From Gemmatimonadaceae bacterium (GTDB lineage Bacteria > Gemmatimonadota > Gemmatimonadetes > Gemmatimonadales > Gemmatimonadaceae), in the NCBI GenBank assembly GCA_036003045.1, contig DASYSS010000037.1, forward strand, positions 1-64,000: a DNA stretch of 64,000 bases, in the 5' to 3' direction. Shown here piece after piece: positions 1,018-7,026 of this stretch (positions are counted from its first letter, which is position 1; the number at the start of each line of letters is the position of its first letter). The translations under genes were made by a program, and so were the position numbers. The notes beneath the pieces were generated by a model, which was not told the DNA's origin, ran no database searches, and was given only the letters and a program-made list of their open reading frames with translations.

Positions 1018-1572
1018 ATGTCGTCGTCTAGCGACGCCAAGTCGGATGAACGGGCGCTCGTAATTGCGGCACAGCGCGGGAGCAGCGAGGCGTTCGCGCA
1101 GCTCGTGCGGCTGCACCAGCGGCGGGCGTATGCGGTTTCTCGCGCGATCGTGCTCACGCACGAAGACGCGGAGGACGCGGTCCAAGAAGGGTTTCTTCAC
1201 GCCTTCAAGGCATTGGACCGGTTTCTTCCAGACCAGCCGTTCGGCGCGTGGCTGTACCGCATCATGGCCAATGCGTCGCTAGACCTGGTGCGGCGGCGGA
1301 AAGTCCGCGACGCGGACGAGCTGCCGGAAGGGGTTCCCATGCCGTTCCGGGACCCCGGCGAGTCGGACGAACTACGGCGCCGTTTGAACGAGGCGCTCAC
1401 GAAACTGACTGACCGACAACGGTCGGTGATCGTATTACATGATGTCGAAGGTTTCACGCACGGCGAGATTGGCGAGATGTTGGGTATACCAGAAGGCACC
1501 GCACGGTCTGACCTGCATCACGCACGCGCATCACTGCGCCGCATTCTCGGGGACGTTCGGAGCGATCTATGA
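1018..1572 (+). CDS. ECF-type RNA polymerase sigma factor
   Basis: This 184-residue protein has the two-domain ECF (sigma-70 group 4) layout. Region 2 runs over roughly residues 15-90, including DAVQEGFLHAFKALDRF and WLYRIMAN. Region 4 runs over about 125-180, with LTDRQRSVIVLHDVEGFTHGEIGEMLGIP as the helix-turn-helix that reads the -35 element. ATG 1018 is preferred over TTG 1003 and GTG 1009 because GAGGG lies 8 bases upstream of it. The stop overlaps the next gene by four bases (ATGA), the classic arrangement for a sigma factor and its anti-sigma partner. The adjoining envelope and efflux genes suggest the regulon concerns the cell envelope or a toxic compound. Confidence 0.92.
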   Translation: MSSSSDAKSDERALVIAAQRGSSEAFAQLVRLHQRRAYAVSRAIVLTHEDAEDAVQEGFLHAFKALDRFLPDQPFGAWLYRIMANASLDLVRRRKVRDADELPEGVPMPFRDPGESDELRRRLNEALTKLTDRQRSVIVLHDVEGFTHGEIGEMLGIPEGTARSDLHHARASLRRILGDVRSDL

Positions 1573-1928
1573 GTGACCTCAGGCTGTTTCCAGACGACGA
1601 TGACGTGACGCGCGGACTCCGCGCGATCTACGCCGCGCCGATGGGCGAGTCCTACTGGAACGAGCTGCAGGCGCGCGTGATGGCGCGCGTCGCCGACGTG
1701 GAGTTGGGATGGTGGACCGAGCTGGATCGCTGGGCGCGTCCCGCGCTCGCGGCGGCGGCGGTCCTGCTCCTGTCGGCCGGCGTCGCCATGTTCCGCGCCC
1801 ACCAATCTGAGGCGGACATCGCCTCCGACGTCATGCTGTCTTCACCCGCCGTGCCCGTATCGACCGCGATCCGGCCGGCATACCAGGACGACCAGGGGGC
1901 GCGGCTGCGCTTCCTGTTCGGCCGCTAG
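1569..1928 (+). CDS. Single-TM protein, probable anti-sigma factor
   Basis: No family was recognised from sequence alone. The 119-residue protein has a hydrophilic N-terminal part of about 55 residues, one transmembrane segment (about residues 56-75, Ala/Leu/Val-rich) and a short exterior tail. That layout matches small membrane anti-sigma factors such as CnrY-type proteins, whose cytoplasmic N-terminus binds the sigma factor. No zinc-binding HxxxCxxC motif is present. Its start overlaps the ECF sigma stop (ATGA at 1569-1572), implying translational coupling. The anti-sigma role is inferred from topology and position. Confidence 0.7.
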   Translation: MSDLRLFPDDDDVTRGLRAIYAAPMGESYWNELQARVMARVADVELGWWTELDRWARPALAAAAVLLLSAGVAMFRAHQSEADIASDVMLSSPAVPVSTAIRPAYQDDQGARLRFLFGR

Positions 1929-1941
1929 CTCGGAGATCACC

Positions 1942-2334
1942 ATGCAGCGCTCAAAGCAACAGGCGCTGATGTTCCTGCTCGGGGCCGTCCTCGTCGGCGG
2001 CGCGCTCGGCTTCTCGGCCGACCGCTACCTGGGCCACGAAAAGTTCGCCGCGTCGTACGGCCCGCGGGCCAAGTTCTACGACGCGATCGGACTCTCCGAG
2101 CAGCAGCGCACCACGCTCGACTCCCTCGCGTTCTCGCAGGACTGCGCGATTCGCGCGCTCCTCAAGCCGGAGAAGCCGCAGCTCGATTCGATCCGCGCCA
2201 CCTTCAAGGCGCAGGTCCGGCGTGTGTTCACGCCCGAGCAGCTGCAGAAGTACGACGAGCGAGACGCCGAATTCAAAGCCCGCCGCGACGCGGAGATCCA
2301 GAAGGAGCCCAAGAGAACATGTTCCGCAAATTGA
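1942..2334 (+). CDS. Spy/CnrX-like periplasmic sensor or chaperone, membrane anchored
   Basis: The 130-residue protein begins with an uncleaved-looking signal anchor (about residues 8-26), followed by a highly charged all-helical domain. Segments such as GLSEQQRTTLDSL and VFTPEQLQKYDERDAEF match the LTxxQ-like repeats of the Spy/CpxP/ZraP/CnrX superfamily, often annotated as heavy-metal resistance proteins. A single internal Cys and a near-terminal Cys are visible, with few His, so metal binding is uncertain. GGAG lies six bases before the ATG. It follows the putative anti-sigma factor by 13 bases and overlaps the TolC-like gene by 16. That position is where CnrX, the periplasmic sensor, would be expected. 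Confidence 0.7.
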   Translation: MQRSKQQALMFLLGAVLVGGALGFSADRYLGHEKFAASYGPRAKFYDAIGLSEQQRTTLDSLAFSQDCAIRALLKPEKPQLDSIRATFKAQVRRVFTPEQLQKYDERDAEFKARRDAEIQKEPKRTCSAN

Positions 2335-3626
2335 TGGTGCTGCTCGCCGCGCCTCTGGCGCTCGGCGCTCAGCAAGTGACCGATACCACGCTGCACCCGA
2401 TTTCGCTCGGGGAAGCGATTCGGCTGGCGGGTGAGAAGAACGTCTCGAACATCGTTGCGTCCAACAGCATTCGGTCGGCGAACAACACCGTTCGCTCCGC
2501 GCGCGCGCAGTTGATTCCGCAGGTGACCGCCAGCGCGGGGCAGAGCAAGAGTTATGGCGATCGCGTCGGTCAGAGCAACCAGATCGTCAGCTTCGTTCCC
2601 GCCTGGAGTTACAACACCGGTCTGCAGACGTCGGTGACGCTGTTCGACGGCGGCGCAATGTTCGCCAATATCAGGACGGCCAACGCGAACGTTGCGGCGG
2701 CCGAGGCGGGCGAGGTCAACACGGAATTCGCGGTCGCCCTTCAGGTGAAGCAGACGTACAACCTGATCCTCGCGGCCAAGGAGTCTGAAGGCGCCGCAGT
2801 GGCGCAACTTGATGCCGCCAAGGTTCAGCTTCAGACGTCGATCGCCAAAGTGAACGCGGGCGCGGCCAACGTCTCCGACTCGCTGCGCAGCGTCGTGCAG
2901 GTCGGAAACGCGCAACTGGCGCTCCTCCAGGCGCAGAACTCGTATCGCACGTCGAGCGCCGCGCTCACGCGGCTCGTCGGCACGACTTACTTCGTAACGG
3001 CGCAGCTGGCGGATACCGTCGAGCGCCCGCCGACGCCGATCGACAGCGCGCAGGTGCTGGCACTGGCGCTCGACGGGCCCGGGATTCGCCAGCAGCAGGC
3101 GACGGTGACGGCCACGTCCGCCGCGCTTCGCTCGGCCAAAGCCTCGTATCTGCCAACGGTCACCGCCGGATTCAACTTCGGCGGCAGCGGCACAAACGCG
3201 GTGTACGGGTTCAACAGCAATCCCTACCCCTACACGCGTACGATCAATGTGAGCCTCAACTATCCGCTCTTCAATCGCTTCACGAGAGAGAACAACATCG
3301 CCACGCAGCAGATCAACCTCGAGAACGCACAGGCGAGCTTGAGGGATCAACAGTTGGGCGCTCAGCAGAACATCATCACGGCGATCGCCACGATTCGGAA
3401 TGCCGAAGAGACGATGCGCGTCCAACAGATCAACGTCGAGGCGAGCCAGGAAGACCTGCGCGTGCAGCAGCAGCGCTACAACCTCGGCGCGTCGGTGCTT
3501 CTGGACGTGCTGAACTCGGAATCGGCGCTCGTCGCGGCGCGGCAGCAGCTCATTCAGGCGCGTCTCAACTACCGGAACGCGCGCGCGCAGATCGAGGCGT
3601 ACATCGGGAAGGATTTGCCGCAGTAA
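2319..3626 (+). CDS. TolC-family outer-membrane efflux channel
   Basis: A 435-residue protein with a cleavable signal peptide (about residues 1-17, ending ALGA) and two long coiled-coil OEP repeats. The repeats are rich in Gln, Asn and Ala (ANANVAAAEAG, QINLENAQASL, AARQQLIQARLNYRNARAQIEAYIG), as in TolC/CusC/OprM proteins. Trimeric members form the outer-membrane barrel and periplasmic tunnel of tripartite pumps. The start overlaps the upstream Spy-like gene by 16 bases and has GGAG upstream, so it belongs to the sigma-factor operon. A strong terminator follows. The pump partners are probably the adaptor and permease encoded next. Confidence 0.9.
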   Translation: MFRKLMVLLAAPLALGAQQVTDTTLHPISLGEAIRLAGEKNVSNIVASNSIRSANNTVRSARAQLIPQVTASAGQSKSYGDRVGQSNQIVSFVPAWSYNTGLQTSVTLFDGGAMFANIRTANANVAAAEAGEVNTEFAVALQVKQTYNLILAAKESEGAAVAQLDAAKVQLQTSIAKVNAGAANVSDSLRSVVQVGNAQLALLQAQNSYRTSSAALTRLVGTTYFVTAQLADTVERPPTPIDSAQVLALALDGPGIRQQQATVTATSAALRSAKASYLPTVTAGFNFGGSGTNAVYGFNSNPYPYTRTINVSLNYPLFNRFTRENNIATQQINLENAQASLRDQQLGAQQNIITAIATIRNAEETMRVQQINVEASQEDLRVQQQRYNLGASVLLDVLNSESALVAARQQLIQARLNYRNARAQIEAYIGKDLPQ

Positions 3627-3652
3627 GAAACGACCACAGCCGAACAGGCCAG

Positions 3653-3687
3653 AGGGGGCGGAAGCCGACGGCTGCCGCCCCCTTTTT
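3653..3687 (+). terminator. Rho-independent terminator after the TolC-like gene
   Basis: Arms AGGGGGCGG (3653-3661) and CCGCCCCCT (3675-3683) pair perfectly, with an inner AGCC/GGCT pair, followed by TTTTT. It separates the sigma-to-TolC block from the adaptor gene and may set different expression levels for channel and inner-membrane parts. Confidence 0.85.
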
Positions 3688-3791
3688 CATGGCCCGGCGA
3701 CTTCAGCGATCTCGCCTTACGGCGCGTACTTCCAATAGGCAGATTGAACAGCTCGCGGCCAGTCCACCCGGCCGATAGGAGACTATTTCCA

Positions 3792-5801
3792 GTGAAACGA
3801 ATTGTCGGAGCGGCGTTGCTCGCCGTCGCCGCGGCTTGTGCCCGAAAGACGCAAGCCCCGACGGTGCAGACCGCTGTAGCCACCCGCCGCGACATCATCG
3901 TCGACGCGCAGGCGAACGGCACCATGGAGCCGATCGCCATCGTCGACGTCAAGTCCAAAGCATCCGGCGTCATCGACAAGATGACCGTCGAGACCGGCAC
4001 CAACGTCAAGCCGGGCGATCTGATCGTTCAGATCAACACGCGCGACGTGCAGAACAAGTTCGACCAGGCCAAGGCGATGCTCGACGCCGCCAACGCCAAG
4101 CTCCAAGTGTCCGAAGCGGACAAGAAGCGCAACGAGGAGATGTTCAAGGCGCGCGTCATCACGCCGCAGGAGTTCGAGAAGGTCGCCGTCGATTACGAGA
4201 ACGCTAAATCGGGCGTCGTGAACGCGCAGGCGAACCTCGACCTCGCCAAACAGAGCCTCGAGGACGCCACGGTCAAGGCGCCAAGCGAAGGCACGATCAT
4301 CACGAAGAACGTGTCCGAGGGCACGGTCATCGCCGGCGCGACGAGCTCCGTGAGCGGCGGCACGACGATCGTGCAGATGGCCGACCTGAGCGTCGTCCGC
4401 ATCCGCGCGTTCTTCAACGAATCGGACATCGGCAACGTGCATCCGGGCGAACCGGCCAACGTCACGGTCGACGCCTATCCCGACCGCCGCTTCAGCGGCG
4501 TCGTGCAGAAGATCGAGCCGCAAGCCGTCGTGCAGCAGAACGTGACGATGTTCCCTGTGCTCGTGAACCTCGACAACAAAGAGCGCCTCCTCCGCCCCGG
4601 CATGAACGGGGAGGTGTCGGTACTCATCGACGAGGTAGACAACGTCATCGCGGTTCCGAACGACGCGATCAAGAATCCGCGTGAGGCGGTGGCGACCGGC
4701 GCCATGCTGGGCCTCTCGGCCGATTCGGTGACGGCGTCGCTCCGCGCGCAGGGCTTCACCGGCGGCGGCAACCGCGGCGGGTTCGGGGGCGGTCGTCGTG
4801 GAGGCAATGGCGGTGGTGGTGGCGCCAACCGCGGTGGCAACGGCGGCGCGCCCGGTGGCGCGACGAATGGTGCGGCGGCTACCCCCGGAGCGACCGCATC
4901 GACGGGCACCGCGTTCGGCGACGTGCAGTTCGCCAGCAACCCGGTCTCGCCCGCGCAGGGCGGCCAGGGCGGCTTCGGCATGCAGGTCTCCGACGCCGAC
5001 TGCAAGAAAGTCGACGACGTTCTCAAGGCGCACCCGAAAGAGAAGAAACAGCTCGACGATCTTCGCGTGAAGCTGCAGGCGCTTCGTCCCGCCGGAAACA
5101 ACGGGGGCCGTGGTGGCTTCAACGGCGGCACCCGTCAGCGCGGCGATTCCGCCGGCGGCTTCCGCCAGCGTGGTGATTCGACCGGACAGCGTCGCCGTGG
5201 TGGCAATGGCGGCGCCGGCGCCAATGGTGGCGGTGGCAACGGCGGTGGATTCAACGGCGGCGGTGGTGGTGGTGGTGGTGGTGGATTCCGCGGCAGCCCG
5301 GAGATGCAGGCCATCAACGAGCAGATGCGCACGATTTACACAACGCTCAACATCGACGCTCGCACAGCCGGAGCATGCGCTCGTCGCGCCGCGGGTGCGT
5401 CGGCTGGAACGCAGGCCAACGCCGGCGGCGGTCGCACGCAGGGTGGCGGGGGTGGTGGCGGTCAGGGTGCGCTCACGCCGTCGCCTGAGGGAGCGTCGCG
5501 TCCCGTGCGCCAGCGCACCGGTCTCGTGTTCGTCTCCGACAGCGCGAAGACGCATTTCGCTCCGCGCATCGTGCAGCTCGGACAGGGCAATCTCGACTAC
5601 ACCGAGGTCGTGAGCGGTCTCAAAGAGGGTGAACGCGTCGTGATGCTCGGTGCACTCGCGCTTCAGGCGCAGCGACAGGCGCAGCAGGACCGTCTCCGCC
5701 AGAACGCGAGTCCGCTTGGCGGACAGCAGGGACCTGGCCCCGGGCCGGGCGGCGGTGGTCCGCGCGGCGGCGGCGGTGGTGGTGGTGGGCGCGGAGGCTG
5801 A
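3792..5801 (+). CDS. Periplasmic efflux adaptor (HlyD/MacA-like) lipoprotein with large Gly-rich insertion
   Basis: GTG 3792 is chosen because AGGAGA sits nine bases upstream and the resulting N-terminus is a lipoprotein signal ending in AAAC (Cys16). Residues about 30-310 form a standard membrane-fusion adaptor: biotinyl-lipoyl half-motifs, an alpha-hairpin and a beta-barrel (RIRAFFNESDIGNVHPGEP). From about residue 321 to 570 the domain is interrupted by long Gly/Asn/Arg-rich stretches. Between them are two helical segments, each with one Cys (DADCKKVDDVL and TAGACARR). The membrane-proximal domain resumes at about 575-622 (VVSGLKEGERVVMLGA), and a Gly-rich tail closes the protein. At 669 residues it is far longer than the usual 350-400. 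GGAGG just before its stop serves the permease gene five bases downstream. Confidence 0.9.
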   Translation: MKRIVGAALLAVAAACARKTQAPTVQTAVATRRDIIVDAQANGTMEPIAIVDVKSKASGVIDKMTVETGTNVKPGDLIVQINTRDVQNKFDQAKAMLDAANAKLQVSEADKKRNEEMFKARVITPQEFEKVAVDYENAKSGVVNAQANLDLAKQSLEDATVKAPSEGTIITKNVSEGTVIAGATSSVSGGTTIVQMADLSVVRIRAFFNESDIGNVHPGEPANVTVDAYPDRRFSGVVQKIEPQAVVQQNVTMFPVLVNLDNKERLLRPGMNGEVSVLIDEVDNVIAVPNDAIKNPREAVATGAMLGLSADSVTASLRAQGFTGGGNRGGFGGGRRGGNGGGGGANRGGNGGAPGGATNGAAATPGATASTGTAFGDVQFASNPVSPAQGGQGGFGMQVSDADCKKVDDVLKAHPKEKKQLDDLRVKLQALRPAGNNGGRGGFNGGTRQRGDSAGGFRQRGDSTGQRRRGGNGGAGANGGGGNGGGFNGGGGGGGGGGFRGSPEMQAINEQMRTIYTTLNIDARTAGACARRAAGASAGTQANAGGGRTQGGGGGGGQGALTPSPEGASRPVRQRTGLVFVSDSAKTHFAPRIVQLGQGNLDYTEVVSGLKEGERVVMLGALALQAQRQAQQDRLRQNASPLGGQQGPGPGPGGGGPRGGGGGGGGRGG

Positions 5802-5805
5802 TTAG

Positions 5806-7026
5806 ATGCTGATCGGCGAAATCATCAGTGTCGCGCTCGGCGCGCTGCGAGCCAACAAACTGCGTTCGCTTCTCACGATGCTGGGCATCGTGATCGGTGT
5901 CGGCGCGGTCATCGCGGTGGTCGCGCTGGGCACGGGCGCCCAGCAGGCCGTGAAAGACCGCATCGCGGCGCTCGGCACCACCCTGTTGACCGTGAACCCC
6001 GGCCAGCAGCGCGGACAAGGGGTCGCGATCGGCGGCGCGCAACAGCGGCTCACCGTCGAAGACGCGAAGGCGGTGGACGAGCACGCGATGCATCTGCTTG
6101 GAGTGCAACCCGAGATGCGCTCGATGCAGCAGATCGTGTTCGGCAACAAGAACGCGAGCACGCAGATCATCGGGACGACGCCCAACTATCTCGAGGTCCG
6201 TAAGTACACGATGGCGGTTGGAAGAATGTTCACCGCGGCGGACGACGAAGGCCGTCAGCGAGTCGCGGTCGTCGGCAACACCGTGGTCAACAACCTCGGC
6301 CTGACGTCCCCCGAAGCGATCGTCGGCGAGACGGTGCGCATTCGCGGCACGCAGTTCACGGTCCTCGGCGTGATGGCGCCGAAGGGACAGGCGAACGCGT
6401 TCCAGGATCCGGATGACGAAATTCTCGTTCCGATTCAGACGGCACGCTTCCGCGTGAACGGCTCCGACCGGCTCGCGTCGATCAGCGCTCTCGCCGAGTC
6501 GGAGGACGAGATTCCGGACGCGATGGCCGAGATCCAGCGCGTGCTGCGTCGCCAACACAAGATCCGTCAGGGTCTGCCCGACGATTTCCAGATCCGCAAC
6601 CAGGCCGACATCCTGCAGACGACGCAGGAGACGACGCAGGTGATGACGTATCTGCTCTCGGGCATCGCGGCGGTGTCGCTGCTCGTCGGCGGCATCGGCA
6701 TCATGAACATCATGCTCGTGTCGGTCACGGAGCGCACGCGCGAGATCGGCATCCGCAAAGCGCTCGGCGCGACGCGTGCGAACATTCTTCTTCAGTTCCT
6801 CATTGAAGCCGTCGTGCTCTGCTTGCTCGGCGGCATGATGGGGATCGCGCTCGGAGCCGGCGGCGCGACGGTCATGAGTCGTACCGCCGGGTGGTCTACG
6901 CAGGTATCGCCGGCGGCGATCGTCATGGCATTCGCCTTCTCGGCGTTCGTCGGTCTATCGTTCGGGGTGTGGCCCGCGCGCCGCGCGGCGGTGCTCGACC
7001 CGATCGTCGCGCTGCGTTACGAGTAG
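5806..7026 (+). CDS. MacB/FtsX-type ABC transporter permease
   Basis: A 406-residue permease with the MacB topology: one TM helix near the N-terminus (about 18-42), a large periplasmic domain (about 45-275), then three TM helices with the FtsX signature around VSVTERTREIGIRKALGA. There is no nucleotide-binding domain in the protein or nearby, so the ATPase must be encoded elsewhere or shared. GGAGG at 5793-5797 is eight bases before the ATG. Together with the adaptor and TolC-like channel it would form a tripartite mechanotransmission pump exporting peptides, lipids, macrolides or similar amphiphiles. The substrate is unknown. Confidence 0.9.
   Translation: MLIGEIISVALGALRANKLRSLLTMLGIVIGVGAVIAVVALGTGAQQAVKDRIAALGTTLLTVNPGQQRGQGVAIGGAQQRLTVEDAKAVDEHAMHLLGVQPEMRSMQQIVFGNKNASTQIIGTTPNYLEVRKYTMAVGRMFTAADDEGRQRVAVVGNTVVNNLGLTSPEAIVGETVRIRGTQFTVLGVMAPKGQANAFQDPDDEILVPIQTARFRVNGSDRLASISALAESEDEIPDAMAEIQRVLRRQHKIRQGLPDDFQIRNQADILQTTQETTQVMTYLLSGIAAVSLLVGGIGIMNIMLVSVTERTREIGIRKALGATRANILLQFLIEAVVLCLLGGMMGIALGAGGATVMSRTAGWSTQVSPAAIVMAFAFSAFVGLSFGVWPARRAAVLDPIVALRYE

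Follow-up and report, generated by a model that had tools for sequence, protein, structure and literature searches.

The locus lies on contig DASYSS010000037.1 (C37, 107 kb) of assembly GCA_036003045.1 from a Gemmatimonadaceae bacterium, a soil bacterium of the phylum Gemmatimonadota, and the window analysed is the 64,000-nt stretch at positions 1–64,000 of this contig. Six forward-strand genes spanning positions 1018–7026, which had been called in an earlier note on this DNA, were all confirmed at the same coordinates. The first encodes a 184-aa ECF sigma factor (1018–1572), in which sigma-70 regions 2 and 4 were matched with Pfam/NCBIfam (Sigma70_r2, 3e-17; r4_2, 7e-16), and overlaps by 4 nt (ATGA) the gene of a 119-aa protein with a single transmembrane (TM) helix (1569–1928), a candidate class II (CnrY-like) anti-sigma factor. 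After a gap of 13 nt follows the gene of a 130-aa protein (1942–2334), described by profile comparison and predicted structure as a membrane-anchored helical hairpin of the Spy/CpxP/CnrX type, which overlaps by 16 nt that of a 435-aa TolC-family outer-membrane channel (2319–3626; OEP, 5e-54). A 165-nt gap separates the channel gene from that of a 669-aa MacA/HlyD-type adaptor with a Gly/Arg-rich insert (3792–5801), and 4 nt further on begins the gene of a 406-aa MacB-type permease without an ATPase domain (5806–7026). On the same strand, an ECF-type promoter (977–1000, CAACG TTTGCATCGGGCCGTC CGT) precedes the sigma gene, and an intrinsic terminator (3652–3688, GGGGGCGG...CCGCCCCCTTTTT) and a second promoter-like element (3704–3728) lie between the TolC and adaptor genes.

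The earlier note had named the lack of this gene order in related genomes as the finding that would count against it; the comparison was run, and the order is kept in dozens of genomes, so it is not a chance juxtaposition. In the window's own family, the order is HD protein, sigma factor, anti-sigma candidate, and Spy-like protein, usually followed by TolC, adaptor, and permease and often by PadR and Kup; the trio of sigma factor, single-TM protein, and Spy-like protein is adjacent in every informative locus and is accompanied by TolC, adaptor, and permease in most. The same order was found in an independent collection of 80 named loci, nearly all from Gemmatimonadota. Among the sister-family (f2) loci, all 18 for which the sigma region was retrieved read sigma, anti-sigma, Spy, TolC, ABC ATPase, adaptor, and permease (L278 and L282 are uninformative for this count); the HD gene lies upstream of sigma wherever the retrieved region reached that far, and one further locus (L060) has the full order including the ATPase. 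Similarly, sigma, Spy, TolC, ATPase, adaptor, and permease genes were present in all five loci with a complete region from family f5 of the same class, with no TolC match in a sixth (L304), and family f7 has the order without an ATPase in two loci. By this distribution the cluster is old, and a dedicated ATPase belongs to its full form; the operon ATPase is absent from every own-family locus examined. In L032, L033, L035, and L036, the gap between permease and PadR is 1.3–1.6 kb, compared with 229 nt in the window, and contains a minus-strand protein with similarity to a TonB C-terminal domain, along with a small CsbD-like protein (names given by eye). A typical Gemmatimonadota copy of the cluster is also found under the title Candidatus Kuenenia stuttgartiensis (L165), probably a mis-binned contig.

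The sigma factors share 66–95% identity in an alignment of family members, and each of the 98 loci compared has the bipartite ECF-type element CAAC-N17-CGT ahead of its sigma gene, where 1.1 would be expected; ahead of the remaining cluster genes the element occurs at or near chance. The same element precedes sigma in 17 of 18 sister-family loci, and a variant, CAAC-N17-TGTC, was read by eye upstream of sigma in family f5. Autoregulated ECF operons are typically recognised by a conserved ECF-type promoter before the sigma gene, and from its constancy over these loci the trio is almost certainly autoregulated through CAAC-N17-CGT, presumably by its own sigma factor. Genome scans with the promoter motif returned 23, 24, and 21 sites in three genomes versus 14, 9, and 10 in controls, and beyond the trio promoters the motif recurred at few loci, those inspected lying in or across coding frames. 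A larger sigma regulon was rejected on this small excess, which suggests a mainly local regulon.

The 119-aa protein matched no Pfam or NCBIfam family, no sequence match to CnrY was found, and Foldseek returned no match in the PDB for its predicted model. It is present in 33 of 59 relatives, mainly in the own family, and adjoins sigma in all informative loci. The predicted helices at residues 11–21, 27–43, and 47–90 (a long one including the TM segment), together with a conserved C-terminal tail helix at 108–117, give a predicted shape of two short cytoplasmic helices, one TM helix, and a short periplasmic tail; the tail has a conserved motif (R-x-A-T-L-R-x-L). In the Cnr system, two helices of CnrY wrap around CnrH (PMC4598750, PMC7406223). 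The 4-nt overlap with sigma, the constant sigma neighbour, and the predicted two-helix/TM shape make the protein a candidate CnrY-like class II anti-sigma factor that would bind the sigma factor. An RseA-like release of the anti-sigma factor by regulated proteolysis, with the Spy-like protein being a mere chaperone made by the response, is rather unlikely: the conserved tail motif could serve as a protease handle and Spy and CpxP are chaperone and adaptor proteins, but the cluster contains no protease gene and the putative sensor is membrane-anchored and always encoded beside the anti-sigma factor, as CnrX is beside CnrY. The simplest reading of the 130-aa/119-aa pair would be wiring in the style of CnrX to CnrY.

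The earlier note had called the 130-aa protein a Spy/CnrX-like anchored periplasmic protein, and the predicted structure, an N-terminal TM helix followed by a long periplasmic hairpin, agrees with this description. Its profile finds Spy as the best match in the PDB (E 0.005), with CpxP also found; 22 of 29 relatives match Pfam LTXXQ at E 0.1 or better (best 2.8e-8), and no match in the PDB was returned by Foldseek for the predicted model. The protein shares the helical hairpin and LTxxQ-like motifs of the Spy/CpxP/ZraP (LTXXQ) proteins, but it is smaller, carries an N-terminal TM anchor, is encoded with an ECF sigma and an anti-sigma factor, and in the window's own sequence scores 16.5 bits against LTXXQ, under the cut-off of 24.3.

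The metal site of CnrX is not shared. CnrX relays metal binding to CnrY through the membrane, and its signalling requires a Met ligand (PMC7689651). In the 130-aa family, no column of His, Met, or Cys is shared by at least half of 49 relatives, start Met aside, and the only His of the window's protein is residue 32, in the linker, and its periplasmic part contains no Met. Nickel or cobalt sensing is therefore unlikely, and a CnrX-type metal site as the main reading was rejected for want of conserved ligands among the 49 relatives. Cys68 and Cys127 are both present in 16 relatives, window included, and both absent in 33, with neither found singly; occurring together or not at all, they probably form a disulfide across the hairpin. 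A true metal-sensing CnrYXH relative, in which the third protein binds nickel, cobalt, or zinc and the exported substrate is a metal or metal complex, could draw on the 15 of 29 relatives that match Metal_resist, on CnrH among the PDB relatives of the window's sigma factor (2e-23), and on an anti-sigma factor of CnrY's two-helix size, but the missing ligands, the absence of an RND pump, and the higher scores of SigE, SigW, and RpoE than of CnrH as sigma relatives make it highly improbable. Since no His or Met is conserved and the pattern of the Cys pair fits a disulfide, sensing of envelope damage, by analogy with Spy and CpxP, is favoured over sensing of metals.

The proposal that sigma through TolC form one transcript is upheld by the 4-nt overlap, 13-nt gap, and 16-nt overlap that join these genes in the window, and the Spy and TolC genes overlap or are separated by a very short gap in most own-family loci. 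Downstream of TolC, the window contains a hairpin of −36 kcal/mol (z −5.4); such a terminator was found after TolC in 7 of 10 loci from the window's genus and the genera closest to it, versus 1 of 61 other loci. The second promoter-like element, CAGC-N17-CGTA, lies upstream of the adaptor in all 10 loci of the same genera (0.3 expected in the 71 loci), and both features are confined to this one clade. With a terminator after TolC and a second element downstream, adaptor and permease form a second unit in the window's clade. The −35 part of this element, CAGC in place of CAAC, differs at a position that is invariant before sigma, and the final bases of the element are similar to a sigma-70 −10 box as well, so that the trio's sigma factor may or may not serve it and another sigma factor may use it; a genome scan for a CAGC-N17-CGTA regulon gave no excess over control. 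Most own-family loci have a short TolC–adaptor gap in which the terminator was not found, and the shortness of this gap makes read-through from TolC into the adaptor likely elsewhere in the family.

The trio stands without an adjoining exporter in 14 own-family loci, which belong to several lineages and genera and are spread over the sigma tree in a way that requires at least four changes, and the sensing module is thus independent of the exporter. No close permease was found anywhere in four genomes (G008, G011, G016, and G021), and in three others (G009, G020, and G034) a TolC–adaptor–permease set without an ATPase is located elsewhere, in one case with CAGC-N17-CGTA upstream; these displaced sets could be either moved orthologues or paralogues. 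The trio might accordingly be a stand-alone envelope-stress module with the exporter as a syntenic neighbour and the control by the sigma factor reaching no further than TolC, or even ending with the trio, a reading that the exporterless loci, the clade-specific terminator, and the differing −35 of the adaptor element would suit. It is considered unlikely, however, since trio and exporter also stay together in the sister family and in a further family of the class, Spy and TolC genes are so closely joined, and the TolC–adaptor gap is mostly short and free of a detectable terminator in the own family. The earlier note's picture of an envelope-sensing sigma circuit wired to an ABC-type tripartite exporter thus holds as a class-wide genetic link and has to be qualified by the separate adaptor–permease unit here and by the trios that have no exporter.

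The exporter genes of the window combine an OEP/TolC channel, a HlyD-type (MacA-type) adaptor, and a permease with MacB_PCD and FtsX domains (Pfam/NCBIfam). The permease aligns to MacB residues 256–646 only and so is without the ATPase half. This composition marks the exporter as a MacAB-TolC relative in split form; the resemblance covers all three components, but the ATPase is unfused, encoded by a separate gene in the sister-family operons and gone from that of the window, the adaptor bears a large Gly-rich insert, and the whole is apparently placed under an ECF switch. The FtsX/MacB permease that had been proposed to fill the pump slot is thus present, although it is not a drop-in replacement. 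The adaptor insert (residues about 320–600) surrounds a small conserved two-Cys domain (DADC...AGACRRR) in own-family adaptors; it gave nothing above the Pfam cut-off, and the sister-family adaptor of L060 shows no sign of it. The window's own 5.4-Mb genome has at least 150 MacB periplasmic-core matches, many in frames of 800–1100 aa that resemble duplicated permeases.

Judged from gene content, the operon ATPase gene is lost in the window's family. An ATPase hidden in the window or its contig was ruled out, as none of the genome's 64 ABC ATPase matches lies on C37. The nearest own-genome relative of the sister-family operon ATPase (G000:C57:1690-2376, 67% identical) sits in a separate exporter locus, next to four permeases and an adaptor other than the window's, and the layout of this locus (TolC–adaptor–ATPase–permease) is kept in relatives. 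In an ATPase tree with weak deep forks, the own-family homologues form one clade apart from the sister-family operon ATPases and are joined, weakly, by the sister family's copy of the C57-type locus; an ATPase that had moved yet been kept as a distinct lineage was rejected, since the own-family homologues do not group with the sister-family operon ATPases. If the window's exporter is functional, its ATPase is probably supplied in trans, and the C57-type enzyme would be a candidate to serve the permease. A broader proposal, that in the Gemmatimonadaceae an entire family of ECF-controlled type VII exporters lost its dedicated ATPase and borrows that of a separate conserved exporter, the switch supplying channel, adaptor, and permease and so re-targeting an existing motor, is advanced only tentatively. 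The family-wide loss of the gene makes ATPase sharing among type VII exporters a testable question.

The locus is probably best read as an autoregulated, CnrYXH-like switch that responds to envelope stress and not to nickel or cobalt and that governs a MacAB-TolC-type exporter of split form. The 119-aa protein would hold the ECF sigma factor through its two-helix cytoplasmic domain, and the anchored Spy-like hairpin would watch the periplasm and act on the short periplasmic tail of the anti-sigma factor. The sigma factor would be released on a signal from the envelope, more probably misfolded protein or a membrane-active compound than a metal ion, and would then transcribe its own operon from the conserved CAAC-N17-CGT promoter. 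The operon would yield the sensor and TolC, to which its ancestral form would add the remainder of a split type VII (MacAB-like) ABC exporter, namely ATPase, adaptor, and permease. An ATPase from elsewhere in the genome would probably serve the exporter in the window's family, and in the window's clade adaptor and permease would be transcribed from their own promoter element after the terminator. The layout resembles CnrYXH-CnrCBA of Cupriavidus metallidurans, as the earlier note had proposed, in its conserved unit of adjacent genes for a sigma factor, a short anti-sigma factor with one TM helix and, by prediction, two cytoplasmic helices, and an anchored helical periplasmic sensor, in its apparent logic, and in the TolC-type channel, adaptor, and inner-membrane pump encoded in the same locus as the regulators. 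It differs in the order sigma–anti-sigma–sensor instead of Y-X-H, in a sensor family without a conserved His or Met ligand, in an ABC-type permease with the ATPase separate or absent in place of the RND pump, and in an anti-sigma factor without a detectable sequence match. Lacking the metal site and the RND pump, two defining features, the locus is not filed as a CnrYXH member. With this circuit, CnrYXH-style signalling through a short anti-sigma factor and a periplasmic hairpin sensor encoded apart from it would reach beyond metal resistance, both to a sensor that has no conserved metal ligands and to ABC-type export, and its near-invariant sigma promoter provides a direct reporter. A literature search, with subscription journals mostly outside its coverage, returned no paper on this circuit and none on such a circuit in Gemmatimonadota.

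Additional copies of parts of the cluster were observed in several genomes. In the window's own assembly, a second set of HD, sigma, and anti-sigma genes (G000:C48:1-1802; L002/L061), about 74, 92, and 80% identical, ends at the contig end and has its own CAAC-N17-CGT promoter; as genomes of the same genus carry one copy of each, it is either a co-binned relative or a duplication. Similarly, L139, L149, L150, L151, and L157 contain, some 6 kb upstream of the main sigma gene, a more distant second sigma–Spy set (scores 176–179) without an exporter, so that the trio looks like a multi-copy module.
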